A stretch of DNA of 64,000 nt from Terebella lapidaria (Eukaryota > Annelida > Polychaeta > Terebellida > Terebellidae): contig OX424568.1 of the NCBI GenBank assembly GCA_949152475.1, positions 23,597,667 to 23,661,666 of the forward strand, written 5' to 3'. Position 1 is the stretch's first letter. Each line of letters starts with the position of its first letter. A program made the position numbers and the translations under genes. Shown one piece after another: positions 6,001-31,640 of this stretch. The notes beneath the pieces were generated by a model. The model was not told the DNA's origin and did not search any database. It saw only the letters and a list, made by a program, of their open reading frames with translations.

Positions 6001-8600
6001 GCACAACAATGTTTATTGAAGATTTATAACACTTCGTATGTAACCCCTCTTTTTCTTATTATGAAACACACTTATCATAAAATGTATTCCAGACAATACA
6101 TCACAAGTTGAAATTACCACTGACGTTCAATAATGACAATATTCCGTCACCCCAGATAAAACCATTCCACCACAGTACAATGTGTTACTTATAACACTTG
6201 TTATCGGATCAGTAAATACTGTTCCTATTAACCCCTTGTTATGATTGCTGTACGGGAAGGAAATGTGTTCCCGGGATGGATTTTAGCACAGGTGCAATTT
6301 CAGTGTTTTTGGAACACGTAGTACAGTAATTATAACTAGTGGTTGCAACCTCCCACATACAGTTTGTGTAATCAACGCACTTCTAGCTTATCAATTATGA
6401 ATGAAATCTGATCAATCAGTTTTGTAGTTGTTATAATATTTTTTCTTGGTGCTAACGGGTATCAGTCACTGTACATCATAAACACCAGTATCTTGTGACA
6501 TGGAACTATCGATGATGAACTGTTTGTACCAGATAAGATATAAAAAGTTATAAAAAAAACTTATATCATGCAAATGAAATAATAAGCAATGTATTGAATA
6601 AAACAGACAGTATAATGCCTTGTAATTTATATGGTAAGCAACCGTCAGTTTTCGAGTGCCTCCGTGTATTACTGGTAGGATGATTGTGTCCCTATGTGTC
6701 AAGCATCATAAACTATCACATCCACTACCTGAAATGATAAAATAAAACTATAAAAATTCCGATTACATTTAATCACACTGTCGTGCTATATCTAATGAAT
6801 ATAAATCAAATGATATTCACTCCTGGATCACATTTACAAATATACATTGCAAATGAATATACTTCACCTTATTGTACATTATATGATTTTATGTAGTGTG
6901 TATTTTCGAGTGATCAAACAATCTACTACCACTACTGACCGTTACTAGACAACATCTACAAAGAAATGGCTATTTTCACACCTCAGTGTAAAGAAAACAT
7001 TCCAATTCTACATTTTAATCATTCTTCAAGAATACAATCCAGGAAATTGCGTTGTCAGTTCAGTACCGCCACCATCCAATAGTTATGGAGATCTTTCACG
7101 AATTATCTCTAGCTCAACTCAGTTGGAATGTGCCAGGAAATGATTTCTGTCTTCCTCCGCACGAAACATTCAATATTGTACATTATTGTCATAGCCCGTC
7201 CCTGCGTCTGTTCTTGTATCTCTTTACATTCATGCCCCTTCCAAGGTCAGTGTCTGTATGCTATGCTATCAAAATGCAGTGTCACAGATGAGGAATCGTG
7301 TCTGCTGATGACCACTTATTTTGGAATTTACCATGGATTGCTTTTATTCTCAATAATGCAATGATTTATCATTAGCACGATTCATCATTTATAGGCGATT
7401 CGTCTGTTCATCCATCGCCACAGTCAAATATATACCAGTATACCATGTATATGTAGTATACATCTTGAAGATGTGCAGTAATATAACTAGAGAAAACAAA
7501 CACTAGAATCGTACACTTCTATCAACCGTTCCAGGAAGTCAAATAATCGAACACGACTTCGACATAATGTTTAGAAGGTTTATGATAGTGATGATATAAT
7601 GCTTAGAATGTTTATGATAGTGATGAATAATCTTAAATAAGAAATACGTCTGATTGATCGGTCCATGTACTAATATCATGAAATACCATTTTCGTGATTA
7701 GCTTTCTCTCAGCATATTACAAAATATTCCCCCATTTTATCACTGAGTATTGTCCAGCATTGCGATCTTGTTTACCTGAGATTCCCCCAGTTTTAGTACG
7801 TACAATAATTCGTGCCCCACACTTAGATCCAACCCCAGCAGAACTCCCAGGAGGTTCAATGCTCTCACCACCACGTCATCTTCGACCTTGAGTCGCCGTG
7901 GTCATCAGGTGGCGTTACATCATACGACTGGGCAGAGTTCAATCAAATAATGTCTTTTTGCAACTGCAAGCCGAGCATAAAATCTGTGTTGATGTAAACA
8001 ATGAATTGTAGTCAACGATCGAATAGATCTGCTTTCGAGTTCATTATTATAATAATAATATTGAATATTTCTATGTACATAAAAATCATGTTTGGCACTT
8101 CATCAGTAATCAATTAATCATGGAATGAGATAACTGGGTGCAAATTTTGTCATCATAATTCATTGGTGATGATTGGCGATTGTCAGTATGCAGCGTGTAC
8201 ACCAACATTTTGTTATAAGACAGTACTTATGGCAAAAACCTGAAAACAACTGTACATGAAAAGAAAAGAATAATGTGCCGTGGATTACAGATAGTTTGTG
8301 CAAGAAATAAAAATTCGATATCATCTCATCCTTGGCACTGAGCCGTCATGATCATCTATGGTCTCTATTTCTGTGCGACTGAACGTGTCAATATATCAGC
8401 AACATTGTCTATCGTTATTAATTACTGTGCTCAGGAAATGTGTCGACATGAATAACGAGTAGTAGCGAGTGATTGAATAAACGTTTTCAAGTTAATTCTT
8501 ACTATATATATATATATATACAAACTCAGGAAGAAAGGTTGGATACAAACTCAGGAAGAAAGTGCTTGATATCACTTTATGATTCATAATATGAGCACAG
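1..8600. repeat. Ancient diverged long-period tandem array (units about 1.5-1.8 kb), no gene recognised
   Basis: No coding region is recognisable here and all open frames are short. Several landmarks recur in the same order. A block with AATATTTC then TGCACA appears near 2160, 3930 and 5395, with a weaker copy near 8055. A block with AATTATAACACTTGTTAT or close variants, followed by a CAGTGCAA-type word, appears near 720, 2345, 4085, 5550 and 6180. A block AACTCCCAGAAGGTTCAATG or variants appears near 2000, 3715 and 7840. The stretch 1-450 also realigns with about 6960-7330 through shared words such as GGAATGTGCCAGGAAATGAT. Spacings are roughly 1.5-1.8 kb where units look complete. Divergence is high, so this is an old tandem duplication or an array of an unclassified non-coding element. 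The boundaries are approximate. Confidence 0.6.
8502..8522. repeat. (TA)n microsatellite
   Basis: A short uninterrupted TA dinucleotide run. It is followed by two close copies of CAAACTCAGGAAGAAAG. Confidence 0.8.
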
Positions 8601-8980
8601 AAAAATCTAAACGAATTGTCAATAGGCTACATCGTGACTTTTTATTTGTTTTATTTCTGTTTCAGAAATTTCTTGCATCAGGCAAAGTAAAATCAGCTCT
8701 GGCAACGTTTGGTTCACAAATATTGGCAAATGCTTGAGGATGTTATGTAGCAGGATTGGGTATGTGGCCATGATGTCTGACATCGACAAGTACACCACAA
8801 TGTATAATGTACTTGTTTGTAATTTATGTTTGCACTTAGCCCAATGTTTGCACGTCATATGAAGCACACCATAACGTCGAAACCATGAATGACTATAATA
8901 GGTTTCTCGTGACACCCATAAGGGATCAAATTGTATAATATATTATACTCAATACTGACACAAAGTGTATGCGTGATGTG
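8600..8980 (-). repeat. Inverted relic of the cGLR 3' flanking region
   Basis: Read on the minus strand, this stretch matches the DNA downstream of the three Mab-21/cGAS-like copies (about 17.31-17.66, 18.93-19.27 and 31.20-31.56 kb). The order of words is the same: CAGTATTGAGTA, then a TGGGTGTCAC-type word, then a GGTGTGCTTCATATGAC-type word, CAAACAT, then GTCGATGTCAGACATCATGG. No receptor coding sequence is seen next to it, so only the flank survives here. It shows that the locus once extended, or was copied, in inverted orientation. Confidence 0.65.
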
Positions 8981-10110
8981 CAACCCCTTAATACGGTGGC
9001 TCATTACCGCCAATTACATTCGTGCATTTCTCACCTCATCTATAATTATCACCTCACAATTTTCACCGCGTTTATAATTTCCACTCCGTTTATAATTATC
9101 ACCTCAGAATTATCCATGTCTACTTGTATATGTGACCCCTTACTTTCGAACTCTGATACTACTGCGGAAATTTGTCGACGGTATCAATAATTCAATATGT
9201 CACGAACATATAACTGTGGGTACTATAGCGATGGTGACAAAATGTTGCGGTTCACTTGTCAGCCTCTGTGTACGTAGGCGTTCTCTTCACTTAGTAGCCA
9301 CTGTTGATTAAATAGTTCTGTGGCTTAAGACCGAGTGCGGATCTCATAAGTTAGGCTAAAATGTCACTTTTCCTATGTATTTATCGTTTCCGAAATGATA
9401 CTTGTGCGTAAATTACGAGCTCTGCAACCAGCTCTAATGATTAGTCCTATCAGAGTCTTATCAACAAGTTCTCAAGAGCAGACGACTGAATATGGTGTTA
9501 CTCGCGTTAGTGCAGGTTGTAAATGTCCTTTTATCATTACAGGTGATATCAATTTAGGCCTGAGGTTAATACTTGATACTTTGATCAGGCCACAATGAAC
9601 TTCGCCCATTCAGTTTAGGTATTAATTGCCTTCAAAAATATAGTTATAATTTTAAAACTAACTTATGGTGCAACACATTTCTACAAGATGACAAAACATG
9701 TGCACAATGATTTTGGCGATTACAATCCTTCCGAATCGTATTCTAAATCATTTTTAGAATCTATTATGTTAATTCCTCATAAACAAACGTGTATCCATCA
9801 CATCCGTATGTAAACACATGCCCAACATCCACATCACGACCTTTTCCAGTTTTTGTCTGCATATATAAGGTAATTATAAGAAATTATCAGTAATTTACCT
9901 TTGTGTGTGTGGAATCGTCAGTCCATCTTATACCTCGTGATTTGTTTACATCTACATTTACATCTACTATTTCTGTGTTTACGTTCAAAATTCCTCATGA
10001 CACATCTGTAAAATGAGCAGAATTTCCTTGAGGACTTTTCATAGTCATAATGCTTGATTTGAGTGCATTCCATTTAGTTGACGGAAGTTGACGTGAAATA
10101 TAGTTTTCAA
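8980..10110. other. Intergenic stretch without recognisable genes
   Basis: Only short chance frames are present. Around 9005-9115 there are four imperfect copies of a word like ATAATTATCACCTCA. Nothing else is recognised. Confidence 0.5.
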
Positions 10111-10660
10111 AAATTGTACTCTGTTTTCGAAGGCAGTTGCTGCAACACAATGTTAGCCCGTCTACATTTTCCACTATTTTCGCATCTACGCGAATTGAGG
10201 TGGTATAAATATCTCACTTCATCAGTTCCATGGCAAGGATAACTACACGTTTTATACCCTACCAATGGAAAGAGAATGATATTACCTGGTAAAAGATGTC
10301 TTCAGATCGGATATCTGTTGGATACTTATCTGTCTATGACCAGTCAAAAAAAATGTTCATCGAAAACTGAACAAATTCTCAGAATCCCCCATGTATTTTA
10401 GATTGTCAGTCCATCCCTCAAATTCAGTGAACCCCCTCAAATTCATCATCCATTAGATTTGTTTTTCGATAAGGTCTACTGATGAGAGAAAAAGATGTTA
10501 CCGGTAAAATTAGCCCAACTGATAAGTAATTTCCCATCACTCCGTGACACAAATTTCACCTGTATCTGCAAGCATTCCGAGAGCACAACAGTCTACGTAA
10601 TACTTTTCTTTCATAATAGGTAAAATACAAATTTCTAATATTAAATAGAAAAATCATCCA
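10110..10660 (+). repeat. Left outer arm of an inverted-repeat element
   Basis: This segment is homologous in inverted orientation to about 14.96-15.37 kb. Shared words include GATGTCTTCAGATCGGAT with the minus strand of 15.21-15.23 kb, TTTCACCTGTATCTGCAA with the minus strand of 15.05-15.07 kb, and GAATCCCCCAT. Penelope-like copy 1 begins directly after it. Confidence 0.6.
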
Positions 10661-10689: not shown

Positions 10690-12440
10690 ATATACGTAGA
10701 ATCCATACCCAGTATTAAGTATTCGGAACAAACAAAACAACATCCGTTATCCAATTTCATAGTCCGTGGACAAAAAGTCATATCAGGCATACGAAGTGAG
10801 AGAAAACAAAAATGACAGGGAAACTCATGAACCCCCCAAAAATGGTCATTAGGAGGTTAAATCAGGTGTTCCGGAAAGAGTGAGCATTTCCTGCCCCACT
10901 AGTGGCACCCGTCATGAAAACCTCAAAATTAACTTGAAAATAGATCAAGTTGCATGGCAGTCATGGATTTGGGGTATTTGTCAACCAGATCATTAAGATA
11001 TAGAGTAGAATTTCTTAAAAGCAGCTTGATAAAGCATAGCCTTGTCGCAGCAGTTTAGAGACTAGCTGGGCACTTCGATAAACAAAGTCTTCATATTTGC
11101 AATGGCTCTGGAATAGCGTATAAGTTTAGAAACAAACACACCATATGCTGGTGACACAGGAATGTTGCTGCTTAGAAAAAGGAAGTTGGCTATAGAAAAA
11201 TTAGAATCATCACGTTTGTCATATAATCTAGTTGACAGGTTAGAATCATTATCAATCTCCAACCTCAGGTCTAGATAGTTGGAAAAATTAGCGTAGTCTG
11301 TAGTATTCTTAACTTCATGTTCCTTGGGATATATGACATCCATATGACATCACCAAATTTGGGTTTATTTAGCGACAATACATCGTCTATGTATTGGAAA
11401 TTGAAATTAAAATTACACGTTAGTTTCCTAGAACCTCCTGATGTGATTCATATTAGTATATCAACAGGTCTGACAATAATGGTGCACAGTTTGTACCCAT
11501 GGGAATACCAATAGTTTGTTGAAATATTCGACCACCAAATTCCACAAGAATATTATCAATCAGAAAAATAATCATATTCACCACATCTATTTCAGTATGT
11601 TTGTATGGGGAATCAGAGTCGCTTTTAACAAAATAAGCGGTATGATAATACTTAACTACAATATAGTGGTACCGACGTTGACCGAAATGAATTATTGATG
11701 AGTTTTTTAAGCTGAGACTTCAGTTGAGAATGAGGTAAAGTTGTGTAAAAAGTGGAAAAATCAAATGTTTTGCTAGTCGTTACTTTTGAGCATGTGGATA
11801 TTCCAATAAAATTTGGAATTTTTTGATATTCACATTTGGTTTATACCACGTCTAGAATAGATGGTTTCACAATACTTTTGGAGACCCTGTTTGATTTTAG
11901 ACAATATAATAGTTAGTACTTTAGAAAGGGCTTTGGTAGAACATGATGCTGAACCTGAAGTATATCTTTGTTTGTATGGATTTTTGTGTAATTTTGGGAT
12001 CCAATATAAGTTTGGTGGATTAGAATCTGGACATGATGTAGTAATACCAAACGAATGCAATACAGACACATGCTTCGATAAGATATCCTGTTTGGGCACG
12101 GTAATGGCTTGGTATGTACTATTGGAATTAGTATTGTTGTCAATACCCAGTTCGTCAAACAGGCACTGTATATAGTATGCTTTACAAACAAAAACAACAT
12201 AATTGGAAGCTTTATCAGCAGGGACAATGAAAAATCTTTCTTGAAGTATCAACAAACTGTTAGCAACCAAGGGATCATTGAAGGCAGATCTATATTAAGT
12301 ACTAACTGACTCTGACGAAATTAGGTCAATGGGTTTATTTACCGATGACCTAATCTGTCTGACCCATTCTGACAGTTTCTGCCTTTTCTCGCTTTGTCCA
12401 TTTTCTGGCATGCTCCTCAACTGCATCCATGATTAACTTA
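10690..12440 (-). mobile_element. Penelope-like retroelement copy 1, broken
   Basis: Minus-strand reverse transcriptase fragments match the better preserved copy at 24.1-25.4 kb. One piece (about 11.83-12.27 kb) carries the N-terminal RT region including LYWIPKLHKNP. Another (about 11.06-11.34 kb) carries the C-terminal YLDLRLEID and AYGVFVSKLIR blocks. The 3' tail, with GACGGGTGCCACTAGTGGGG on the minus strand, is shared by all three copies. The 5' end reaches about 12.44 kb. This copy is degraded. The family call rests on the KIHKP-like block, the IPMG motif B and the YIDD motif C order seen in the sister copies. Confidence 0.75.
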
Positions 12441-12999: not shown

Positions 13000-14420
13000 T
13001 GCTTCAAATGACGTTATTGTTTCATTCTTTTTCAAAGGCCACTGCTTCGGTGCTTTTGCGCTCATTTTTATGTTTCTAGTGGATTGTCAATAACATAGAT
13101 GTGCACGGATCGTTCAATTGCTGGGGTGCCGACCGGGCGATAATGGGGGTAATTCAGGTTAAGTTTGTTTTTGAAAGTTCTTGCGTGCGCTCAGTGTAGT
13201 CAATACCATACCTCGTTGCATGACCGGACTTCGACTCGTTGAAACCTGGTGAGGACGTGGTCATAGATTGTTTCCTAGCTGCCACCACGCCAGGAAGATG
13301 CAACAGGTCTTTTCAGAAACACGTTTATTGAACGGTGAAACGAGAACAGGCAGAATAACCGTTACGTATGGTACAACATAAACACCGATGACATAAAGCG
13401 GAGTGGCGCTAAGCAATACCCAGTTCACACTTGTTTTGTCTCTTTCAATGACATTAAGATTGAATAATCAAGGCCATTCATATTGAGATTGTAATTTAGG
13501 TAAATTTTCGGGGTCACTAATAAATGATATGTCACACATGACTCCTTAAATGCTCATATCTCAACACTAACCCCTGTCGATATGTGTTCTGCCTGCAGAT
13601 GTCATTTCACACATTTCAGGTCAAACTTGTTGAGATTTATCAGTCAAGGTCATTTGCACTATACTCGAGCTTTTTGTCTGCAACTGCCAGTTTGCCAATT
13701 CAAACTGGGATCTATTATGATGTTGACAATAAATACTCAAGTAGTCTGAGGTCAAGTTAAAGGTCGCCTACCAATTTACCAAATATGATTACATATATGC
13801 TCGTAAATGCAACACATATGACTAAATACAACACATATGACTTCCTATATGCTAATGATACAAACTGAACTAATGACACAAACAGGAGCTAATTTCAGCT
13901 TCTGTCTTCAGGCTTTTAGCATTGACCAACTTACACAATCTCATGTAATCATGACATTGAAATTGAGCACTCTGTGTCATCTGAAGTGAAGTATGAGGAT
14001 TTCGAAAGATGTACTTTACATGTGTATATGATTCCTTATATGCTCAGAAAACAAACCTAAGCTATATTTTGAAGCAATAAGTGTCCAACTCCCAAGTTAC
14101 ATATCTTGATCTAGACATGACATGGAGTTTGACCCACCATATTTATCACAGCAATTCACATGGCCTTGTGATGCATGAATCAAGGTCTTCTGTGGTCAAC
14201 TTCAAGGTCATCAAAAGATCCAACATATATGACTTTCTATACTCACAATACAAACCTAAGCACTGTCCATAACCTAAGCACTGTCCTTATACATTTCAAG
14301 TTAGATGTGTCCTCGAGACTTGAGGTCAAGTTCAAAATAGTACGTGGACCTATCATGGATAGTTGCGTTTCGCACATTTTGTGGTCAACATAGGGTGTTA
14401 GGTTGAAGACGATACAGTTT
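13000..14420. repeat. Spacer of dispersed mollusc-like repeats with AGGTCA words
   Basis: No gene is seen. There are several copies of a word family like TATGACTTTCTATATGCTCA...ACAAACCTAAGC (about 13.55, 13.80-13.86, 14.03-14.06 and 14.23-14.28 kb), each near AAGGTCA half-sites. The same family reappears near 32.08, 55.31 and 61.08 kb. A 48-bp piece at 13428-13475 recurs at 17981-18028, immediately before the truncated receptor copy. Confidence 0.5.
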
Positions 14421-15370
14421 ATAATGGGAGGAATCTGAAACGTTTTTTCTCCCCGAGACCACATGATGGATTTTTTAAAAACTAAATAGGTATGTTGATA
14501 CTATGGGATAGTCCCCGCAAACTGGTTTCTCTATAATTTAAAAATGTTCAACTTTTCCTTACTTTTGAAGAACCTCCATTTAGTCATGGCAATAGGAATT
14601 TATCGTCTTGTCTTACTTACATGGCAAAATCTTCTGAAATTTTGTATGGTGATGATACGTGACACCCTTCATAGTGTTTCATTTTTTTCAGAATTCTGAT
14701 TTTCTTTCTTGGTGAATTTTGTCAACGTTGAGAAAAATTGCTATTTATTCTTATTGGGAGAAATTTCAAATGTGTTCTCTTCGGAACCACTTAATTATTT
14801 GGAATTTTGCATAGTGATATAATGGGTAGTCTTCTGCAGAAATGATTTTTTTCAGAATCTGAATTGTTATTTACTTTTTGTGAGTTTTATCAAATTTGAT
14901 TCATTTTCACACTATTTCTCCAATGAGACGAATCGATGGGATATTGATATGATCATTGAAGATTTTTTAATTCAACTTTGAAAACTTGGAAATTTACTTA
15001 TATTTGAAGAATTGTATCTATACTGCTGTGCAGTCGGGATGGTTGCAGATACAGGTGAAATCTATATCATGGAGAGAAAGGAAATTAATTATTGGTCGAA
15101 CTAGTTTTTCCAGTGGGTGAGGGATATGCCGAGTTCAGAGGGGATACACTCATCCCAAAAAATAAATGGGGGATTCGTAAAATTTCATAGAGTTTTCTAT
15201 GAAAAATTACCACAGATCCGATCTGAAGACATGCTTCACGAGGTAATACCACTCGCTTTCTAACCGTGAAGGACAAATGTCACGAAACCAATAAAATAAA
15301 TCATTTTTAGGCCTTCCCTTTCAATTCAATTACATGCGAAAATAGTGTAAAACGTAGTTGGGGGTGACCT
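14420..15370 (-). repeat. Right arm (inner plus outer) of an inverted-repeat element
   Basis: It is the inverted counterpart of 12.45-12.99 kb and 10.11-10.66 kb together. The two parts are contiguous here, which marks this arm as the uninterrupted one. Confidence 0.5.
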
Positions 15371-15540
15371 TCCCAGTGTGTTAAAGGCGAACTTCAGCGT
15401 AGCATGATCAAAGCATCGAAATCTAGCACGAGCAGAACTAAATATAGATTGGCTGCATTGACAAGACATACATGTAAAACATGCATTAACGGGTAACAGC
15501 ACATTCGGTCGTCTGATCTTGAGAGTTTGTTGATAAGACT

Positions 15541-17052
15541 ATGACAAGATTAACGGTTACTCATACGATAAACTATAAAATCAACGGTGGCTACGAGGTT
15601 GAGAGTATGCAGACAAGTGAACAGAAGCAGAAAGTGAAGATTCTCTCACAAGTAGACATGGATAATTCCGGTATCATTGAAAGATTCCGTCCGATGCACG
15701 ATAAAGAGAAACATCTGCAACAGTTGTTTGACCAAGCCTACCAAAGCTGGAAGCGGTTCTTACTGAAACTGTACAACTACAAGGAAATCGGCACGAAGGT
15801 CTGGGACGAGACCACGCACCTGATGGGGAGTATGCATGACGGCGCATTCACGGCGAGGCTCTACAGTGAGCAGCATCTGACAATCGAGGCAGACTTCATG
15901 GTTGATGCGTTCGAGTTACAGAAGGAGGACATAAACGCGGTCCCTGAGCATCCCGGCTTCTATCGCATATGTAATGGCGTTGGCCTCTACAACCGCATTA
16001 TCGGTATGGCATCATTCTTTAAGGTGGACCCACGAACGGCCGAAAATTTCGTTCGCGTGTTTCTTGCCCCACTGACAGGTGGCATTGAGCAAGAGTTCCT
16101 GATGGGTGAAGCCATCAAGTTACTCGCAGAATCCGTGTTTGGTTTGCAGGAGCGAGACAAGGCCCATGTGGAGCCGATCATGTCAAGCATGTACAGGGAT
16201 CAAGGCATAGTGACCTGTAAACTGGATACCGACTTCAATGGGCCAGCAACAACAGTGAAGATAACCACGTTCGTGGACGGACAGAGACGATTTGACATGT
16301 TATATGACTTGGTGGTGTCAGGCCGGTTGTCGTTCTGGCCCGAGCAGGCCAAGGAATGGGAACATCGACCACGCGAGTGGCCCCCAAGGTCCACAGTGGA
16401 GTCTATCATAAAGGAACACAAGGTGAACCTCGTGGCCAAGCCCTTGAATGACGTACAGGCAGAGCAGAGCACAGAGTGGCGCCTAACATTCTTAGCCGAA
16501 AGACGCCTCACTAAGGATCAGACACCTGACATGAGATTCACATATTACCTGTTCAAAATTCTTTTCTATGAGTATTTTAAAACGGTGATTGGTGGGAAAT
16601 CTTTGGCATCTTACCTAGCGAAAACCACTATGTTTTGGATGTGTGAAGAAATCAAACCTGCTGCTTGGGCCATCGACAACATCCAGTCCAACCTCAAAGC
16701 CCTGCTGCTTAAGTTATTCCAGAGTATGGACAACGGATGGCTACCGCAGTACTTTATACCCGAAATCAACCTACTGGGACCTGACAAGTGCAAGCTAGTG
16801 GAAAACGCCCGGAGTATGGACATGCGGTCCAGGCTGCTGGATGACCCCGTGGGCTGCCTGCCTGTCTCCTCCATTGAGAACACGGCCCGGCGGGTGGAGG
16901 AGCTTGTGCAGTTCTATGAGATCTGGACCAACCACTACGAACGCTCACTAGAGAGGTTCTCCCAGACCAGATACGTGTACCCGACTGTTTCCAGACCTAC
17001 AAACCTATCCTATTCTAGCTGGTCACCACCGGTCGATGACGATTTAGATTGA
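15541..17052 (+). CDS. Mab-21 domain cGAS-like receptor (cGLR), intact single-exon gene
   Basis: This is a 503-residue protein of the Mab-21/cGAS nucleotidyltransferase fold. Seen in the sequence: the NTase GS motif (HLMGSMHDG, G96-S97), an E-x-D pair on the next strand (E116, D118 in TIEADFMVDAF), and a later strand with a third acidic residue (D256 in LYDLVVSG), followed by WPEQAKEW (266-273). The C-terminal Mab-21 helical half is complete, with EWRLTFLAE (312-320), LASYLAKTTMFWMCEE (355-370) and LPQYFIPEINLL (401-412). The start is supported by an in-frame TGA 21 nt upstream, and no intron is needed. By family knowledge, cGLRs with this acidic triad make cyclic dinucleotides that signal to STING after sensing nucleic acid or another ligand. 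That activity and the ligand are inferred here. It could instead be a non-catalytic Mab-21-like protein. It is the only intact member of a cluster of copies in this window. Confidence 0.93.
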   Translation: MTRLTVTHTINYKINGGYEVESMQTSEQKQKVKILSQVDMDNSGIIERFRPMHDKEKHLQQLFDQAYQSWKRFLLKLYNYKEIGTKVWDETTHLMGSMHDGAFTARLYSEQHLTIEADFMVDAFELQKEDINAVPEHPGFYRICNGVGLYNRIIGMASFFKVDPRTAENFVRVFLAPLTGGIEQEFLMGEAIKLLAESVFGLQERDKAHVEPIMSSMYRDQGIVTCKLDTDFNGPATTVKITTFVDGQRRFDMLYDLVVSGRLSFWPEQAKEWEHRPREWPPRSTVESIIKEHKVNLVAKPLNDVQAEQSTEWRLTFLAERRLTKDQTPDMRFTYYLFKILFYEYFKTVIGGKSLASYLAKTTMFWMCEEIKPAAWAIDNIQSNLKALLLKLFQSMDNGWLPQYFIPEINLLGPDKCKLVENARSMDMRSRLLDDPVGCLPVSSIENTARRVEELVQFYEIWTNHYERSLERFSQTRYVYPTVSRPTNLSYSSWSPPVDDDLD

Positions 17053-17980
17053 GCTGACCTTATTGCCTGGGTCACTACAACATTTGTCCAGTGACAGCTT
17101 ATCGTGGAGGTTTATTTCTGTGCTACTAATATATTGATTAAATTTGCCAAATATGATGCATGTAATTATCTGCTTTAACTCTGATGTTCTATATAAGAAT
17201 ATATTCACAACATAGCTAAAACATAAAGTCTTTAAATAATCATTAGACATACAACGCTATTAATTATTTATAAAAATAAATGGAAACCAATCAAAATCAA
17301 AGAGAGAATATTCCTCTGACTACAACATGCTTCAGTCGCCTATGTTTTATCAGAAGCACTTGAGAGACTCTTGTTCTTTTCTAGCACTTCGTTAATGAGT
17401 TGTACATCACGTATGCCTGTGTCAGTATTGAGTAATAAATATACGCCCTCTCACCTCATGTAGGTGTGACCAGAAAATTATAAGAGTTCCTTATGTTTTT
17501 TTTTATGTTATGGTGTGTTTCAGATGCACGCAAACATCGGACCATGTATAAAAATAAGTGACAAAAAGAATAATATACATGGTACAATGTGCTATATTGC
17601 CGATACTAGTCAGATATCATGGCAACACGTACGGACTTGCTACATACCAGGCTCAAGCATTTGCCATGTAAGCATTTCAAGCTCAAGCATTAGACAGTTG
17701 TCAGGGTTAACTTTCCTTTGGGTGATGCACGCAAATAATTACACTGTAAAATAAATAAAACGAAGCACCAAGCGTGCTGTAACTCAATGACAGCTCCTTT
17801 AGATTGTTCTGTCTCAAGCGTATGAAACATGAAGCTATCCAGGCCAAGTTCAGTCAAAAATAACATAGAGGCATCTATGTGATTTTCGGTTCAATGTTGC
17901 AAAAAGAACATAATGTGGGAAGCCCTATGCTTGGCGTATGTTCACATGGCTACATGATAAACCTAAGCTCTAACATGTCC
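17053..17980 (+). other. Downstream flank of cGLR gene, a conserved duplicated segment
   Basis: No gene is seen. Candidate polyadenylation signals lie near 17275 (AATAAA) and 17440 (AGTAATAAATA). From about 17.31 to 17.66 kb the sequence is duplicated downstream of the two other receptor copies and, inverted, at 8.6-8.98 kb. The duplicated unit therefore extends at least 600 bp past the stop codon. Confidence 0.6.
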
Positions 17981-18028
17981 ACTCTTGTTTTGTCTCTTTC
18001 AATGACATTACGATTGAATAATCAAGGT
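17981..18028 (+). repeat. 48-bp junction repeat, second copy of 13428-13475
   Basis: TTGTTTTGTCTCTTTCAATG, followed by an ATTGAATAATCAAGG-type end, occurs nearly identically at 13.43 kb. It abuts the 5' breakpoint of the truncated receptor copy, so it marks a recombination or insertion junction. Confidence 0.7.
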
Positions 18029-18678
18029 CATCCACAGTGGAGTCTATCATAGAAGAATACAAGGTACACCTGGTGGCCAAGCCCTCGAGCGACGTTCAAG
18101 CAGAGCAGAGCACGGAGTGGCGCCGAACGTTCTTAGCCGAGAGACGTCTCACCGACCTGACATGAAATTCACATATTACCTGTTCAAAATTCTTTTCTAC
18201 GAGTATTTTGAACAAGAGCTTGATGGGAAATGTTTGGCTTCTTACCTAGCAAAGACTACTATGTTTTGGATGTGTGAAGAAATCTGCTGCTTGGAGAGTT
18301 GACAACATCCACTCCAACCTAAAGACATTGCTTGCTAAGTGATTCCAGAGCCTGAACAGCGCACACCTACCACAGTACTTCATACCTGAAATCAACCTAC
18401 TGGGGCCTGACAAGCACGAGCTGGTGGAAAACGCCCGGAGTATGGATATGCGGTCCAGGCTGCTGGATGACCCAGTGAACTGCCTGCCTTTCTCCTCCAT
18501 TGAGAACACGGCCCGGAAGATGGACGAGTTCGTGCGGTTTCTTGAGATCTGGACCGACCACAAAAAACACGCCCTAAAGAGGTTCTCCCGGACCAGATAC
18601 GTGTTCCCTACTGATTCCAAACCCACAGACCTATCCTCTTCTAGCCGGTCACCACCGGACGACGATGACTTGGATTAA
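18029..18678 (+). pseudogene. 5'-truncated cGLR copy (C-terminal half only)
   Basis: This copy aligns with the intact receptor from about residue 284 (STVESII) to the DDDLD C-terminus. The nucleotidyltransferase half is absent: sequence 5' of 18029 is a foreign repeat. Two internal deletions break the frame. One lies just after the ERRLT block (about 18150) and the other in the segment after MCEE (about 18285). The last 84 codons (18424-18678) are open and end in the same acidic tail. It lacks the GS and E-x-D motifs, so it cannot be an active enzyme. It is most likely a decayed segmental duplicate, since the downstream flank was duplicated with it. Confidence 0.88.
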
Positions 18679-19450
18679 GCTACACTGCCACGGTCACTAT
18701 ATCAACATTGGTGGAGTGACATCGTATCGTGTCGGTTCCTTTCTGTGCTAGAAATATACTGATTTATTGTGCCAAATACAATGCACGTTGATATATGCTT
18801 TGAAGATGAGTATTAGTATATGTTAACAGCATAGCTAAACTATAAAGCTTTTAAACAGTTATAACATATGCGACACTATAAATTATCTATATTGACTATA
18901 TCAAACACGAATCAAATCAAAGAGACAAAAATATGCTTCTGACTACATCATGCTTTAGTTACCTGTGTTATATCAGATACACTTGAGAAACACTCTTATG
19001 TTTTTTTTTCTTCTAGCACCTATTTCAATGGTTGTAAATCACGCATGTCTGTGACAGTATTGAGTAATAAATATATGCCCTCTCACCCTGTATGGGTGTC
19101 ACAACAAGCCTATAAGAGTCTCTCACGGTTATGGTGTGCTTCAGATGACATGCAAACATCGGGCCATGTATAAAAATACGTTACAAGAAAGAAATAATGT
19201 GGTATACTTGTCAACATCAGATATGACAACATGCCCAGTCTCACCACGTACCGTGCACTTGCCAATATAAGCATGCTAATGGCAATGGCTTCTCGGCCCT
19301 CAGAATACAAATTATTAACTCTGCAAATTGTCTTCTGTAGAATGGTTTCACGGGCATATATGAATCATATATTTTTTATTGGTGACCTTGAAGTTAACAG
19401 GAGACTACCTTCAGTATATGCCAAATTCCCCATTTTCGGAAAATAATTAA
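18679..19450 (+). other. Downstream flank of truncated cGLR copy
   Basis: The DNA from about 18.71 to 19.27 kb is homologous to the flank after the intact receptor. It includes AGTATTGAGTAATAAATAT and GTGTGCTTCAGATGACATGC-type words. No gene is present. Confidence 0.6.
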
Positions 19451-19500
19451 GGTGTATCAGAAGCCGACAGCGAAAGGCAGTGAACAAGTAGACACAAGTC
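19451..19500 (+). pseudogene. Short relic of a cGLR 5' coding region
   Basis: GGTGTATCAGAAGCCGACAG and the following GGCAGTGAACAAGTAGACA closely match positions 29366-29410 of the full-length pseudogene, where this sequence precedes the DMDNSGIIERF block. Only about 50 bp survives. It implies another receptor copy, in direct orientation, whose body has been lost. Confidence 0.6.
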
Positions 19501-21631: not shown

Positions 21632-22787
21632 AGGAATCTACGTTGAAAATATCGATCCAAAATACATGTTCAGTCATGGAGCAGGGTTGCGTCGAACCAA
21701 CGGTCCTGGTTCAGAATCTTAAACACTTGGTTATCCAATGGACAAACACCTATCACATGTTGGCCAGAATTAATACCGGCATCACATGCAATGCATTGGG
21801 TAAAATAGATGACACCTGGACCAGGGAATATACGACAAGGCGGTTCAGTCTGCCGTGACCACCCAACTGGGTGATAGGGGTCATTAAAACCTTCACTGGA
21901 TGTATCCAAATCGTATGACCCAGGCTACCTGGATATGGGGACAGGACAATGAGAATATATCAGTCTAGTTCCACGATGTTACCAGCGAGTGAACTTGCGC
22001 ACCCATGCCCAAAATTCATTACACATGTTTCCATTGGGATACTTGACTATCTTATTCCATGTATAGTGATCCATGGAAACTATGCAGAATATGAATGCCA
22101 ATTGCTAGCAAACATGGTGCAACTCCTGCTCTAGGAGTATAAATGCTATAGGAGTTGAACTCTGGAACTCACTTCTGTTGAACATCGGGAAACCTCAAGT
22201 GCTTGTCAGATTTATTTTTTTCACTCATATACCTAAACTGAACTACATATACCGTGCCTTGCCAATATTCACTTCGTAATGGCACATGCACCATTTGTGT
22301 TCTTTAGTCATATTTGGTGCTTATATTGTACACATTCATTTCTTTACAACACGTGATTATTCTGTACACGCATACTGCGCATATATTTATTATACATGTA
22401 TACATTTGAGCATTAGTAAATTATCATCGTTAGCAGTGATTATGGTTAAGACAAATTATATGACTCTTTTCATGGTCAATTTGAGTCAAAATTTAGTCCT
22501 ATCACGATTTTCATTAAATAAAATGTTTTCAATCTCCTTCAAAATGATTTTGAATGAAAGAGCACCTGATGATTAGTAGGATTTGACATTTTGTTTATAA
22601 CGAAGTTATGACTGTTTTAATATTTCGCGATCCGCCACGGTGGCCATTTTGGTTTTTCAGTGAAAATCAGTATTTGCCATGGGTGGATTCGAGTGGACTT
22701 TTTTGTGTGGTCAGAGATAACCCCAAAGAACCTATTTCAGGTGAAAATTCTTTGTTCACATTTCTGTCCAACCTCAGCACTCATAAT
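21632..22787. other. Intergenic stretch without recognisable genes
   Basis: Short frames only. No known domain was recognised on either strand. Confidence 0.4.
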
Positions 22788-24058
22788 CCGGGGATAGAAA
22801 GTCATATCAGGCATACGAAGTGAAGGAAAACAAAAATGACAGGGAAACTCATGAACCCCCCCCCCCCCCCCCTCCCCCCCCCCCGAAAAAAAAATGGCAT
22901 TAGGATGTGAAATCAGGTGTGACAGAATGAGTGAGCATTTTCTGTCCCACTAGAGGCACCCGTCATGAATTCCCCAAAATTAACGTGCAAATTGATATAG
23001 TTGCATGGCAGTCATGGATTCGGTGTATTCATCAACCAGATCATGTTGAAATCCATAGAATTTCTCAAAGCAGCTATAAATCTTGGTAAAACATATCCCT
23101 TTCGCAGCAGATTAGAGACTAGCTGGGCACTTCGATAAACAATGTCCTCATATTTGCAACTAGCTCTAGAAGAGCGTACAAGTTTAGAAACAAACACACC
23201 ATATGCTGGTGACACAGAAATGTTGCTGCTTAGAAAAGGGAAATTGACTATGGAAAAATTTAAATCATCACGTTTGTCATATAATCCAGTTGACAGGTTA
23301 GAATCATTATCAATCTCCAACCTCAGGTCCAGATAGTTGGAAAAATTAGCGGAGTCTGTAGTATCCCCAATTCCAAATTCCTTTGGATATATGACATCCA
23401 AATAATCACAGAATTTTGGATTATTTAGCGACAATACATCGTCTATGTATCGGAAAGTGAAATGAAAATTACATGTCAGTTTTTTGGAACCTCCTCGTTG
23501 TAAATGTTGGATGAAATTTGATTCATATGAGTATAAAAACAAGTCTGCCAATAATGTTGCACAGTTTGTACCCATGGGAATACCAATAGTTTGTTGAAAT
23601 ATTCGGCCACCAAATTCCACAAAAATATCATCAATCATAAAATTAACCATATTTATCACATCTATTTCAGTATATTTGTATGGGGCATCAGAGTCGCCTT
23701 TAACAAAATAAGCGGTATTATATTTAACTACAATATAATAGAACCGACGTTGTCCATTTTTAGAGAAAAATGAGATATTGATGAGTTTTTTAAGCTGAGA
23801 CTTCAGAGTTCAGAATGAGGTATAGTTGTGTAGAAAATGGAAAAATCAAAAGTTTTGATAGACGTTACTTTTGAAAGTGTATGAGCATTGTAGGGATTTT
23901 TCAATAAAGATTTGGGTTTTTTTAATATCCACATTCGGTTAACACCACTTCTAGAATAGATGGTTTCACAGTACTTTTGGAGACCTTGTTTAATTTTAGA
24001 CAATATAGCAGTTGATATTTTAGAGAGGGCTTTGGTAGAACATGATGCTGAACCTGAA
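22788..24058 (-). mobile_element. Penelope-like retroelement copy 2, broken, inverted relative to copy 3
   Basis: On the minus strand this carries RT motif B (GIPMGTNCA), the catalytic YIDD of motif C and the YLDLRLEID and AYGVFVSKL blocks, with the shared 3' tail ending near 22.79 kb. The longest uninterrupted part is 23012-23659. Its 5' end stops at about 24.06 kb, only about 60 bp from the 5' end of copy 3, so the two lie head to head. The copy is 5'-truncated and broken. Its tail contains a much expanded poly-C run (22857-22884). Confidence 0.85.
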
Positions 24059-24121
24059 ATAATATATCTATATATACAATATATTATACAACATTCTAAT
24101 AATAACAATACAACATTCTAA
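24059..24121. repeat. AT-rich spacer at the centre of the Penelope-like inverted pair
   Basis: It consists of TATA-type words and two copies of ACAACATTCTAATAATA. This is the centre of symmetry of a roughly 2.8-kb inverted repeat. Confidence 0.7.
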
Positions 24122-25690
24122 TAATGTTGTTTTTGTTTGTAAAGCATACTATATACAGTGTCTGTTTAACGAACTGGGTATTGCCAACAATACTAATTCC
24201 AATAGTACATACCAAGCCATTACCGTGCCCAAACAGGATATCTTATCAAATCATGTGTCCGTATTGCATTCGTTTGGTATTACTACCTCATGTAAAGATT
24301 CTAATCTACCAAACTTATATTGGATCCCAACGTTGCACAAAAATCCACACAAACAAAGATATATTTCAGGTTCAGCGTCATGTTCTACCAAAGCCCTTTC
24401 AAAAATATTAACTGTTATATTGTCTAAAATTAAACAGGGTCTCCAAAAGTACTCTGAAACCATCTATTCTAGAAGTGGTGTAAACCAAATGTGGATATTA
24501 AAAAATTCCGAATCTTTATTGGAATACCTACATGCTCACACACTTTCAAAAGTAACGTCTATCAAAACATTTGATTTCTCCACTTTGTACACAACTATAC
24601 CTCATTCTGAACTGAAGTCTCAGCTTAAAAAACTAATCAATAATTCATTTTTCTCTAAAAAAGGACAACGTCGGTACCACTATATTGTAGTTAAATATAA
24701 TACCGCTTATTTTGTTAAAGGCGACTCTGATGCCCCATACAAATATACTGAAATAGATGTGATAAATATGGTTAATTTTCTGATTGATAATATTTTTGTG
24801 GAATTTGGTGGTCGAATATTTCAACAAACTATTGGTATTCCCATGGGTACAAACTGTGCACCATTATTGGCAGACCTGTTTTTATACTCATATGAATCAG
24901 ATTTTATCCAACATTTACAACGAGGAGGTTCTAAGAAACTAACATGTAATTTTAATTTCACTTTCCGATACATAGATGATGTATTGTCGCTAAATAATCC
25001 CAAGTTTGGTGATTATTTGGATGTCATATATCCTAAGGAACTTGAAATTAAAGATACTACAGACTCCGCTAATTTTTCCAACTATCTAGACCTGAGGTTG
25101 GAGATTGATAATGATTCTAACCTGTCAACTAGATTATATGACAAACGTGATGATTTCAATTTTTCCATAGTCAATTTCCCTTTTCTAAGCAGCAACATTC
25201 CTATGTCACCGGCATATGGTGTGTTTGTTTCTCAACTTATACGCTATTCCAGAGCTAGTTGCAAATATGAGGACTTTGTCTATCGAAGTGCCCAGCTAGT
25301 CTCTAAACTGCTGCGACAAGGATATGTTTTACCAAGACTTATAGCTGCGTTTAAGAAATTCTATGGACGTCATCATGATCTGGTTGACAAATACAGCAAA
25401 TCCATGTCTGCCATGCAACTAGATCTATTTTCATGTTAATTTTGGGGAATTCATGACGGGTGCCACTAGTGGGGCAGGAAATGCTCACTCTTTCCGGAAC
25501 ACCTGATTTCACCTCCTAATGGCCATTTTGGGGGGTTCGTGAGTTTCCCTGTTATTTTTGTTTTCTCTCACTTCGTATGCCTGATATGACTTTCTGTCCC
25601 CGGACTATGAGATTGGATAACGGACCCTGTTTTGTTTGCTCGGAATACTTAATACTGGGTATTGATTCCACGTCTATATCTTTGTTTGTG
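24122..25690 (+). mobile_element. Penelope-like retroelement copy 3, long open reverse transcriptase, 5'-truncated
   Basis: An open frame of about 400 codons ends at 25439. Domains in order are: an N-terminal RT block LYWIPTLHKNP, motif A FDFSTLYTTIPH, motif B GIPMGTNCAPLLADLF, motif C FRYIDDVLS with the catalytic DD, then YLDLRLEID and a C-terminal AYGVFVSQLIRY block and KKFYGRHHDLV. This order and wording fit Penelope-like elements rather than LINE or LTR enzymes. No GIY-YIG endonuclease is seen after it. The 3' tail (25440-25690) is shared with the other two copies. The element lacks its 5' portion, so it is probably not autonomous. Family-level certainty is moderate. Confidence 0.85.
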
Positions 25691-26391: not shown

Positions 26392-27890
26392 CAGACGTAA
26401 AGGCCTAGAGGCCTTGGGGCATTTCGATACACAACACAATCACAGGTGAACTGTTAATTACTGACAACTCTGCAACCAAAATGATGATGTAGATACATCC
26501 ATTTCAATCCAAGACGACGGTTTCTGAGATATAAATGAAAATAAACGAGATATGGCCCGAAAATGAAAAATGCCGACTCAGCAGCAAAAAAAAATTGGCC
26601 CAGTCACAAATTCACCCGATACCCCCAAGACATGTTTGTCTGGTACCACGAGTCCAAAAACAACATCCATTTCATTCAACGATGTATCGTTCCTGAGATA
26701 TGGCCAAAAATGAAAAATGTCAAGCAAAAAAAATTTGGCCCGGGATCAAGTTGTCCCAACATACCCCTAAGACATAATTGCCTAGTGTCACGAGTCCGAA
26801 AATAACGTCTGTTTCGCTCTACGATGAACCGTTTCCGAGATATGGCCGAAAATGAAAAACGCCGACCCAGCAATGAAAAATTTGGCCCAGGACCAAGTTG
26901 ACTGTTTGCCTGGTGTCACGAGTCCGAAAATAATGTCCGTTTCGCTCTACGACACACCGTTTCCAAGATATGACCGAAAATGAAAAAAGCCGACTCAGCA
27001 AAAAATAAATTGGCCCAGGGCCAAGCTCACCCAACATACCCCTAAGACACATTTCCCCAGTGACGCACCGCGACGCACCGTTTCCGAGATATCGACGAAA
27101 ACGAAAAATGCCGCTTCGGCAGAAAAATTTCGGGTCAAGGTCAAAGTTCATCCATAATACCCCTAAGACATGTTTATCTAGGTCGACGAGTCCGAAAATA
27201 ACGTCCGTTTCGCTTTTACGACGAACCGTTTCTGAGATATCGACGAAAACAAAAAATGCCGACTCGGCAAAAAAATTTCGTGTCAAAGTTAAAGTTCGTC
27301 CATATAACCCTCAAGACATGTTTGTCTAGGTCGACGAGTCCAAAAATGACGTACGTTTCGCTCAACAATGCACCGTTTCCGAGATATCGACGAAAACGAA
27401 AAAATGTCGACTCGGCGAAAAAATTTCGGGTCAAGGTCTAAGTTCATCCATACTACCCCTTAGACATGTTTGTCTAGGGTGACGAGTCCGAAAATAACGT
27501 CCGTTTCACTCTTCGACGCACCGTTTCCGAGATATGCAATGAGCCTCAAGGATGACTAACCAGAATTGTCGTTTGATGGATTGACCCCATAATCGATAGG
27601 GCTCCTCTGCAACACTATATCAACATATATGTCAAGTTTCAGAATGGTAGCACAAGTACTTTTCGAGTTATCATCCGGAAACCATTTGACACAAAATTCA
27701 TCCTCACGGACTAACCGGACCTCGGAGCAGGCTCCAAAACAATAGGGCTCATCTATGTAATATATGTGATTACTGGTGAAATTTTCTCGAAGATTCGTCA
27801 AGGCGTTCTTGATGTATCGTCCGGAAACCGAAAAGTGGAAAAAAAAAATTCTGACAAAACCATAAGGACATTTCGTGCCGAAATGCCCTA
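26392..27890. mobile_element. Tandem-repeat-bearing non-autonomous element, older copy (Helentron-like/HINE-type)
   Basis: Architecture: a 5' end with GACGTAAAGGCCTAGAGGCC; a subterminal repeat GGGCATTTCG (26417-26426); a core of about seven diverged monomers whose start words fall at 26551, 26699, 26841, 26969, 27090, 27238, 27385 and 27533 (spacings 121-148 bp); a unique tail from 27533; and a 3' end with CGAAATGCCC (27879-27888) that is the exact inverse of the 5' subterminal repeat. There is no protein coding capacity. Subterminal inverted repeats, a tandem core and a 3' hairpin are the known signature of Helentron-associated interspersed elements. The class call is inference. Confidence 0.75.
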
Positions 27891-29100
27891 ATAAAAAAAA
27901 ATCTTACAGTCCTTGAGCTTTTCATGAACATTTTGTCTGTTATCTTTATACCATACATATATGTTGATTGACATGAGCATTATCTCAGCGTTGTCAGATC
28001 GATCATTAATACAGTTTGAACAATATGTGGGTTGTCTTGTACGAGTTACTGTGTCTGTGGAGTTGAGTGTTTGAACCCCTGACCTAATATGGAGAACTAG
28101 GCACGAAAAAGGCTCGATGAACAGGATGGACGCAAACGTGGAAGGTGACACTGGACAGTGCAAAAACAGCTTATATATACTCAAGTTTGAATAATTCAAC
28201 AGTTTTGTTTACATATTTGTGATCCCATATATTTGAACATATGTTGAGTATGAACATCTATACTGCTTTGCTTATCATAAGCGAGTTCCATGCATGATTG
28301 AACGAGAGTATTCATGCATTATTCATGCATTTGCTGTTCTGTTTTAAAATGACATGTTGAAATTACGTCCAGGTGATGTTTTGTTATGTTATGGATCTCT
28401 TATTTTCTGTTAATTATATTTGCGTTTGTGTTGTTCTATTTAATGTTGGATGAGTGATGAATACATCATGAATGATATAATCATACTATAATCTTCTAAT
28501 TATGTTTGTTGGTGACAATTGTCGGGTGGTGAATCTTAGCATATGCAATTTCACACCTTTTGATAGGCTTTGTGCTTTGAATCAGAATCCAGTGGCCAAT
28601 TTTTTTTATTTTATTGTGAAGTAAGATGCATTCGGCTTGACAATAGGTTGGCTGAAATCAATTTCAATGAAAACATGGGTACAGTCGTCAGAACGGAACC
28701 TTTGTTTTGAAAGAAAAGGGCTGTTCAGTTACGGGGATTTTACTATTTTCGGGCCTAGTTTGTTGTGGATATGTTGGATTTTGAAGGAACATAAAGGTGA
28801 TATATTTATGAACCATGATCAATGGACTCCTTCATGTCGACAACATGAATCTAGGCACCAGAATTAAGCTTCTATGTGGATCATTAGGCGATTTGTTGAC
28901 GTTTAAGTGCTTTGACATGAGTAATATGCTAATTAGTTCAAAATTTGCTAAATGCTACAGAACTCCAGTTAGCATCCAGAGGTTTCCGAGTCCTGACAAC
29001 TTATTCATTGCATTTCATCCACAAAACCTCATAGAACTCTTCATTTCCGGGTCCGCTAGGCACACTAGTAGACTAAGGGTCAGAAAATGAAAAGGAAACC
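27891..29100. other. Intergenic stretch without recognisable genes
   Basis: AT-rich, with only short frames and no recognisable repeat or RNA gene. Weak ATTCATGCAT repeats lie near 28290-28335. Confidence 0.4.
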
Positions 29101-29174
29101 CCAACAATTTGTCACCTACACTCGATAGTAGGCACGATTCGGCCGTCTGATCTCGAGAGTTTATTGATAAGACT

Positions 29175-30945
29175 GTGATAAGACTGAGGGTTTGTACACA
29201 ACAAATTATTGGATCAACGGTGGTTACTAAGTGAAGAAAAAACTTTATCGTACTATGAGAGCCTGGCTGACAAGTAAACCCCAACATTTTGTCACCTACC
29301 CGATAGTAGCCACGATTATATGATCGAACGTATTGGCCTATCAAGAACGTAAATATTTTCTTCAGGTGTATCAGAAGCCGAAAGCGGAGAGCATCAAACA
29401 AGTGGACATGGATAATTCCGGTATCATTGAAAGATTTCTTCCCATTCACGGTAGAGAGAAGGCACTGAGGCAGTCGTTTGACGAAGCCTTCCACAGTTGG
29501 AAGCAGTGCCTCATGAAATTGAAAAACGCCGAATACCTGGCGGAAGTCACAGACGAGACCACGCACCTGATGGGGAGCATGCATGACGGCGCCTTCACGG
29601 CGCGGATCTACAGTGAGCAGCACCTAACAATTGAGCAGACTTCATGGTTGAGGCGTTTGAGATAAATAAGGAGGATGTGGTCGCCATCGATGAACAGCCT
29701 GGCTTTTATCGTGTGAGCAAGGGCGTTGACATCAACAACCGCGTTATCGGAGTGGCCACGCATTTCAAGATGAACCAGCGGACATCCAAGGATTTCATTC
29801 GTGTGTTTCTTGCCGGGACGATAAGAGGCACGAACCAAGAATTCCTGCTGGGTCAAGCGATAAAGTTGCTCGCCGATTTTGTGTTTATTATGGGATAGCA
29901 CAGCAAAACTGACAGCACGGATGCCCGTTAGTACCACATGTGAAATTATATTTATCTGGCAGCTTCCATTTATTATTTGCCCGCCAAAAAATTTGCCTTA
30001 AGCCCATCGAGAAATTGAGTGATGGCCGCCATATAAGTTCATATTTTCACACCTGGCGCTATCGTGCTTCCCTATGATACAGAGGCGATCATGTCAAATA
30101 TGTAATGGGACCAAGGCGAAGTGACCTGTGAACTGGATACCGACTTCAATGGGCCAGCAACGACAGTGAAGATAACCACGTTCGTGGACGATCAGAGGCG
30201 ACTCGACATGTGTTTCGATGTGGTCGTGTCAGGTCGGTTGTCTTTCTGGCCCGAGGAGGCGAAGGAATGGGAACATCGACCGCGCAAGTGGCCCTCAAAC
30301 TCCACAGTAGAGGCTATTATGAAGGAACACAAGGTACACCTGGTGGCCAAGCCCTCGATCGAGTCGGACGTAAAGCCAGAGCACAGCACGGAGTGGCGCC
30401 TGACATTTCTAGCTGAGAGAAGCCTCACAGAGATGACATGAAATTCACATATTACTTGTTCAAAATTCTTTTCTACAAGTATTTTGAAACGGAGATTGGC
30501 GGAAAATCTTTGGCATCTTACCTGGCAAAGACCACCATGTTTTGGATGTGTGAAGAAATCGAACCGACTGCGTGGACAATTGACAACATCCAGTCAAACC
30601 TCAAGGCCCTGTTTGCTAAGTTATTTCAGAGCCTTGATAACGGACGACTATCACAGTACTTTATACCTGAAATCAACCTACTGGGACCTGACAAGCACGA
30701 GCTAGTGGGCAGCGCCCGGAGTATGGACATACGGTCCAGGCTGCTGGATGACCCCGTGGGCTGCCTGCCTGTCTCCTCCATTGAGAACACGGCCCGGCGA
30801 GTGGACGAGCTCATGCAGCTCACTGAGATCTTGGTCAACTATTACAGACTCGCTGAACAGATATATGCGTGAACCTGAATGTTCCAGACCCACAGACAAG
30901 TCCTCTACCAGCTGGTCACCACCGGACGACGACGACTTGGATTGA
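29175..30945 (+). pseudogene. Full-length cGLR pseudogene
   Basis: This is homologous to the intact receptor across its length, from the 5' leader (TGATCTCGAGAGTTTATTGATAAG resembles 15515-15538) to the DDDDLD end. Lesions seen by alignment: the start ATG is GTG (29175); the segment after ATCAACGGTGG is disrupted and about 150 bp of extra sequence follows before GTATCAGAAGCC; a one-base loss falls inside the E-x-D metal-binding motif (after ACAATTGAG, about 29635); roughly 180 bp of unrelated sequence replaces the region after FVF (29895-30080), and an in-frame stop then follows MSNM; and there are frame changes at the SLTE block (about 30430) and near the C-terminus (about 30865). The Mab-21 C-terminal half (30438-30860) remains largely open. 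It is most likely non-functional. Confidence 0.9.
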
Positions 30946-31640
30946 GTAACAGTCAATGGCACGATCACTATTATCAACATCATGAGTTCCATTGTATGGT
31001 GAAGAATATATCGCTGGAATGTGCCAAATAAAATGCACTTGAATCTATGCTTTAACAGTTATATTCTGTATAAGTATATGTTCACAACACACCTAAAACA
31101 TAAAGTTTTCAAACAATCATATCTCATACGATACTTTGTATAATTTATATTAATTATTTCAAAAACAAATCAAAGACATAATATGTGCGCCTGACTACAT
31201 TATGCTTTAGTTACCTGCGTTTTATCAGTAGCAGTTGAGAGACTCTTTTGGGTTTTTTTTGTTTCTAACACTTTATCATTGGATTGCACATCACGTATGT
31301 CAGTATGCGTATAATAAATGGCCTCTCAGCCGGAATGGATGTCACTAGAAAACTACAAAAGTCTCTTGTGTTTTTTCATGGTGTACTTCATATGACACCC
31401 AAACATCGGGTCATGTATAAAAATAAGTTACAAAAACGTGATACATGTATTGTGCACAATACAGTGTGGTATGTTTGTCGACATCAGACATCATCGTTAC
31501 ACACCCAGTTTCCCTACTTACTGGGCTCAGGCACTTATTTGTCAACACAAAGTTGTCATGGTTAACTTTCCCTCGGGTGAATCATGGTCATGCATATCAT
31601 AAAAATAGACATGAAAGAAGTGCCAAGGGCGCTTTAGCTT
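30946..31640 (+). other. Downstream flank of cGLR pseudogene
   Basis: From about 31.0 to 31.6 kb this is homologous to the flanks following the two other receptor copies (words such as CATCACGTATGTCAGTATG and AACATCGGGTCATGTATAAAAATAAGT). No gene is present. Confidence 0.6.

Follow-up and report, generated by a model that had tools for sequence, protein, structure and literature searches.

The window analysed here is a 64,000-nucleotide stretch of the genome of the annelid Terebella lapidaria (assembly GCA_949152475.1, 761.6 Mb in 438 contigs), covering positions 23,597,667 to 23,661,666 of contig OX424568.1, which is referred to as contig C15 (C15:23597667-23661666). It carries one unbroken coding region with a Mab-21 domain, the domain of the cGAS-like receptor (cGLR) superfamily, together with the remains of related loci. 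A first-pass annotation had described five segments as derived from one duplicated locus, with shared Mab-21 coding sequence and downstream flanks and one intact survivor among decaying siblings. Both parts of this description were borne out, the latter by blastn, Pfam and the lesions. A blastn search of positions 14000-18000 against the window, in combination with a nucleotide profile built from copies A and C of the window and a related copy on contig C6, recovered all five segments, whereby the smallest (relic R) was found via the profile and pairwise blastn only. Copies A and C match the profile by construction; the other segments do not. As a control, the reversed window gave a single match at E<=1 (E 0.77). 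The five segments derive from one kind of locus and, together with the retroelements between them, are arranged as follows:

8575-8998, minus strand: 3' flank of the inverted relic (blastn, profile)
9105-9331, minus strand: leader and first codons of the inverted relic, then unrelated filler (profile)
9440-10658, minus strand: 5' flank of the inverted relic, in collinear pieces (9441-9606, 10162-10198, 10268-10312, 10356-10399, 10500-10658)
14958-15657, plus strand: 5' flank and leader of copy A
15658-17052, plus strand: copy A, unbroken coding region of 464 codons from the shared methionine (reading frame open from 15541, 503 amino acids)
17053-17834, plus strand: 3' flank of A, common to B, C, the inverted relic and the C6 copy
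18030-18678, plus strand: copy B, 5'-truncated pseudogene from about codon 245 to the stop
18679-19278 (end approximate), plus strand: 3' flank of B (blastn, profile)
19447-19494, plus strand: relic R, 48-bp leader remnant ending at the start codon position
29132-29407, plus strand: 5' leader of C, whose acceptor-like tract (by eye) ends at 29365
29408-30945, plus strand: copy C, full-length pseudogene (coding equivalent)
30946-31666, plus strand: 3' flank of C (blastn)
10690-12208, minus strand: retroelement copy between the inverted relic and A
22780-24061, minus strand, and 24063-25677, plus strand: two retroelement copies in opposite orientation between R and C

In the profile search, copy B gave an E-value of 0, while the inverted relic gave 1.2e-42 for its 3' flank, 1.1e-34 for its leader and 8.6e-11 and 7.2e-4 for pieces of its 5' flank. 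Relic R (E 6.9e-5) is 81% identical over its 48 bp to 29361-29408 of copy C. Compared to the first-pass annotation, all segments proved real, but several limits had to be corrected. The 50-bp 5' relic given as 19451-19500 comprises 48 bp at 19447-19494, and the C-terminal half copy (18029-18678) starts at 18030 and is followed by its preserved 3' flank up to about 19278. The full-length pseudogene placed at 29175-30945 has its coding equivalent at 29408-30945 and is homologous to A or C6 over 29132-31666, plus a short block from 28957. The inverted relic is not confined to 8600-8980 but spans 8575-10658. It retains its two flanks and four initial codons, with about 100 bp of simple filler where the coding region stood. 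Since both flanks are present and the coding region is gone, it is a locus without its gene, oriented head to head with A. The block farthest out (10500-10658), which is weak alone, coincides in part with a stretch that has short matches on other chromosomes. A profile match at 56288-56400 was discarded as a family segment (E 0.23), and an assembly artefact from duplicated haplotypes was ruled out by the differences of 15.5-26% between the whole-coding copies.

Outside the window, close members were found as a tandem pair of unbroken copies on contig C1 (C1a, C1:31858378-31859739; C1b, C1:31869504-31870880) and as a broken copy on contig C6 (C6:38340738-38342137). In the genome protein search, which scores the best candidates only and therefore gives lower bounds for family counts, 13 of 48 rows were accounted for by the six close copies, and the other 35 rows were 24-38% identical. 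All five genome matches of the 3' flank of A lie in family loci (A itself, B, C, the inverted relic and C6), which speaks against a genome-wide element. The shared 3' flank is not a genome-wide repeat, and the concern that it might be a genome-wide transposon unrelated to the receptor was not borne out. The 5' flank of A showed 13 matches: the flank itself, three places in the inverted relic, and nine short matches elsewhere; of these short ones, eight fall within query bases 10-136 (14959-15085). A separate repeat at 58432-59511 of the window has a counterpart (L042:7205-8471) shortly downstream of C6.

Copy A had been placed at 15541-17052. It is indeed unbroken, but its start is probably 15658 rather than 15541, since it is homologous to the C1 copies only from about codon 37 onwards and the unbroken members start alike, with MDNSG or MENFG, at the methionine of codon 40 (Met40 = 15658), which is common to the relatives. 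The leader between matched points is about 117 bp shorter in A (160 bp, 15499-15658) than in C (277 bp, 29132-29408), and C, C6 and the inverted relic retain leader sequence missing from A. Residues 1-39 of the long open reading frame are therefore probably not ancestral coding sequence. In Pfam, A matched Mab-21_C (E 3.4e-11) and Mab-21 (E 1.5e-8), both above the cut-off, and both families matched all three unbroken members (A, C1a and C1b). For PF03281, the Pfam Mab21 family that together with the clade delimits the cGLR superfamily in PMC10732462, A reached 35.3 bits compared to a cut-off of 24.1.

A tree of the six copies (A, B, C, C1a, C1b and C6; 1398 coding columns) joined C1a with C1b (support 100/100), A with B (82/88) and C with C6 (98/98). 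Forcing A, B and C together was 17.2 log units worse in the approximately unbiased (AU) test (p 0.009), and the N half, available for A and C only, gave an AU p of 0.025 for a clade restricted to C15. With the C1 copies left out, the C half plus flank still kept A and B separate from C and C6 (89/93). With this rejection on the coding region, which does not extend to the C half (see below), a purely local cluster is not supported.

The ten whole-coding pairs excluding B were 74.0-84.5% identical, with a synonymous divergence (dS) of 0.31-0.73 and a ratio of nonsynonymous to synonymous divergence (dN/dS) of 0.31-0.48. The five C-half pairs including B showed a dS of 0.37-0.55 and a dN/dS of 0.33-0.42. 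The 3' flanks differ by 24-33% raw over 454-496 sites, corresponding to a Jukes-Cantor (JC) distance of 0.29-0.43, which is near or somewhat under dS and fits sequence evolving mostly neutrally. A dS of 0.3-0.7 with a dN/dS of 0.3-0.5 points to constraint on the copies through most of their past. On the terminal branches, the ratio was 0.30 for A (bootstrap 0.22-0.39), 0.34 for C1b, 0.37 for C1a and 0.35-0.41 for the broken copies. Lesions were counted in the frame of A, the open reference: B carries two frameshifting deletions and one premature stop, C four frameshifting deletions (1, 10, 13 and 1 bp), a 165-bp insertion and two premature stops, C6 three frameshifts and one stop, and C1a and C1b none of either kind. 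In a selection-free simulation (2000 draws), A stayed stop-free in 0.35% of cases at 0.106 changes per site, which is its branch length, compared to 5.6% at 0.05 and 0.1% at 0.15. Judged from these sequences, the broken copies would have been constrained over most of their branches and would have broken late. By these numbers turnover does not look rapid.

The observed homology, flanks, lesions, tree, constraint and gene conversion in the C1 pair (see below) are best explained jointly, with a probability of about 0.85, if the window is the C15 part of an old subfamily of few Mab-21-domain genes within the cGLR superfamily. This subfamily would consist of single-exon coding regions with six or more members that encode or once encoded a protein (A, B and C on C15, the C1 tandem pair and C6), plus the two non-coding relics of the window. 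The loci would have been copied together with their flanks in tandem, in inverted orientation and between chromosomes, and purifying selection would have acted on the copies over most of their separate histories, until B, C and C6 broke and A and the C1 pair stayed open. Altogether, this looks like an old, partly dispersed and slowly dying subfamily with an ordinary gene-family history and no burst of recent change.

Several observations weigh against this account. Between broken and unbroken copies, the branch ratios (0.30-0.41) overlap, with wide intervals. On the C half, a C15-only clade was not rejected (AU p 0.090), and the support for A with B was just 76/81. The 3' flank of C is 73.8% identical to that of B, 72.1% to that of A and 68.3% to that of C6, its partner in the coding tree, while B and C6 share 74.6%. 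The indels conflict as well: a 6-bp insertion joins C and C6, and a 10-bp deletion at the same place joins C and B. Finally, in a protein tree of the C-lobe (28 rows with three PDB reference rows only and five long branches), A and C1b stood apart from C1a (98/80), contradicting the DNA tree. These conflicting signals of flank, indels and C-lobe tree point to reticulation by conversion, or to recurrence, which likely blurs the family history.

A case of conversion is clear in the C1 pair (L039-L041, C1:31854000-31880000). Third-position differences between C1a and C1b amount to 14/200 in codons 217-416 compared to 84/249 outside, and none of 500 shuffles was as strong. This conversion tract covers the C-lobe, while the N-lobe stays diverged. 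In a scan of third positions in six of the 15 pairs, only C1a-C1b was clear and the others were weak or null, with 13/500 shuffles as strong for A-C, 29/500 for C-C1b, 84/500 for A-C1b, 147/500 for C-C6 and 314/500 for A-C6.

Regarding the encoded protein, the residues G57-S58, E77-x-D79 and D217 of A are invariant in the three unbroken members. G57-S58 corresponds to the G[S/G] activation-loop motif, which in PMC9980059 defines cGLRs together with an active site [E/D]h[E/D]-X50-90-[E/D], predicted structural homology to cGAS and a ligand-stimulated nucleotide product activating STING. The invariant G-S, E-x-D and D fit a nucleotidyltransferase of the cGLR kind. Profile matches to PDB chains were obtained on the C-lobe side only (cGAS chains at best E 2.3e-4). 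An expanded family would be unsurprising in view of the radiations reported in PMC9980059, where some bivalves exceed 200 cGLRs and some cGLR-rich species have 3-10 STING genes. The chances are roughly even that A encodes a nucleotidyltransferase producing a nucleotide signal upon ligand sensing, as cGLRs do. The predicted signal would feed STING; the genome holds 12 STING-domain matches on contigs C1, C2 and C3, which provide context and no functional link.

On the other side of the balance, the distance from E77-x-D79 to D217 is 136-137 residues and lies outside 50-90, the catalytic triad rests on motif reading, the Pfam Mab-21 match of A covers positions 98-189 of 197 only, and an AlphaFold model of A with three window pieces of C had a mean pLDDT (predicted local distance difference test) of 32.8 and was unusable. 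The acceptor-like tract before the ATG, which is common to C and the inverted relic and similar but changed in C6, is absent from the leader of A. With this element lost, the 5' end of A is altered, and A, although its coding region is open, is only presumed to be expressed. For comparison, 22 other Mab-21 frames of the genome (longest frame per locus, individual frames unchecked) showed in a rough alignment a spacing of 71-132 in 16 cases and outside this range in six, with 4/22 within 50-90. An hhalign comparison of the A/C1 profile with nine groups of genome Mab-21 proteins aligned from residue 148 at the earliest and mostly in the C-lobe, leaving the N-lobe catalytic columns unconfirmed. 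A single scan of viral contigs with the protein gave no match.

A Mab-21 protein without nucleotide signalling, of developmental or structural function, would be compatible with the same history and is a serious, if tentative, alternative. MAB21L1 and MB21D2 also belong to the superfamily, and PMC10732462 gives their immune roles as unclear. This alternative is further favoured by the long acid spacing and by the C-lobe tree, which places the query with a Mab-21 cluster on contig C3 and not with PDB 8gjy, MB21D2 or MAB21L1. It is disfavoured by the invariant residues, the STING-domain matches and the large radiations reported for some bivalves in PMC9980059.

The C-terminal tail WSPPxDDDLD (WSPPVDDDLD in A) is located at 17020-17052 in A, 18646-18678 in B and 30913-30945 in C. 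Across the 15 pairs of the six copies, 8-10 of its 10 residues are identical, compared to 4/25 to 18/30 in the preceding linker, and C1a and C1b differ within it by five synonymous and no amino-acid changes. The tail was not found in the other 22 Mab-21 frames, as read from their longest frames. This acidic, near-invariant tail may serve as a docking motif. A bolder proposal, which we consider unlikely, sees here cGAS-like enzymes of a lineage-specific class, with a longer stretch separating the catalytic halves and, following a rapidly changing linker, a near-invariant acidic tail (WSPPDDDDLD). Such a receptor would signal via a partner bound to its tail, and conversion between tandem copies would homogenise its C-lobe while the N-lobe diverges.

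In place of an old subfamily, the first-pass annotation had proposed that an immune receptor undergoes rapid, recent birth and death locally, with retroelements active around it. Five segments within about 23 kb, with two broken coding copies, two non-coding relics and retroelements between them, give this idea its appeal. However, the identities of 74.0-84.5%, the dS of 0.31-0.73 and the joining of C with the C6 copy have already weakened it. The same holds true for the retroelements: the three reverse-transcriptase copies (10690-12208, 22780-24061 and 24063-25677) show pairwise raw differences of 10-13% (JC 0.10-0.15), a value that also counts changes before insertion, compared to 24-33% raw for the flanks of the gene copies. 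Since this divergence is lower, the retroelements probably arrived after the duplications, instead of taking part in them. This scenario is therefore improbable. Even less probable is a mobile element that took up a Mab-21 gene and carried the units along. In its favour, C15 and C6 share a flank-containing block of about 2.2 kb, C15 has several units, of which one is inverted, and 14959-15085 has short matches on other chromosomes. Against it, the 3' flank occurs in family loci only (5/5), the copy number is low and the eight window reading frames scanned against Pfam contained no transposase, although unit ends and target duplications were not specifically searched and would be hidden by divergence.

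The third reverse-transcriptase copy showed RVT_1 within 24225-25436 (E 1.1e-7), and the scanned fragments of the copies at 10690-12208 and 22780-24061 gave no Pfam match. The retroelement at 10690-12208 is presumably Penelope-like, judging from a motif; Pfam provided no such label for the scanned fragment. The arms of 22780-25677 are inverted over 740 nt with 94% complementarity. A piece of another reverse transcriptase lies at 32181-33023 on the minus strand (RVT_1, E 9.8e-8), and a tandem array of diverged units, each about 121-148 bp long, occupies 26557-27510. Furthermore, the window contains an LHFPL-type tetraspan protein frame at 46839-47414 on the minus strand (L_HMGIC_fpl, E 2.6e-22) and an open sulfotransferase frame at 61604-62686 on the plus strand (Sulfotransfer_2, E 2.1e-22). 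The mitochondrial cox1 of the assembly is open over 514 codons under the invertebrate code (codes 5 and 9 tried), with AGA and ATA at expected serine and methionine positions, respectively.

With an old subfamily as the preferred reading, the window offers a worked case of cGAS-like gene turnover in an invertebrate, in which whole loci are copied within and between chromosomes, constrained for long and lost late, and in which conversion in a surviving tandem pair is limited to one part of the gene. It also contains a warning that a pseudogene cluster does not equal rapid turnover unless dS is measured. Concrete experimental handles are the conservation of the tail and the separate evolution of the two halves. 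Among literature titles on cGLR pseudogenes or cGAS-like gene conversion, judged by title only, none concerned cGLR gene turnover.

Compared to known systems, the query shares with the cGLRs (PMC9980059; PDB 8gjy, 'cGAS-like receptor 1') a C-lobe profile homology to 8gjy (E 1.7e-12), the G-S and E-x-D...D motif and several STING-domain matches in the genome. It differs in its spacing of 137 versus 50-90, its position apart from 8gjy in the C-lobe tree and its own C-terminal tail. MB21D2 (PDB 7lt1) shows C-lobe homology (E 2.4e-7) and a similar 'MLYD' strand, but forms its own long branch that does not join the query. MAB21L1 (PDB 5eog) is homologous as well (E 2e-5), but in the C-lobe tree 5eog is joined by a separate MAB21L-type gene of the genome on contig C2 (L001; 100/99). 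The clustered Mab-21 group on contig C3 (C3:49199888-49252783) comprises several open frames and pieces with stops. Its members at 49.20-49.25 Mb (L020-L023, L025) are 34-37% identical to A, with open frames of 628-653 amino acids and no WSPPxDDDLD tail in the frames read; they are likewise clustered, and in the C-lobe tree they join the query family (96/93).

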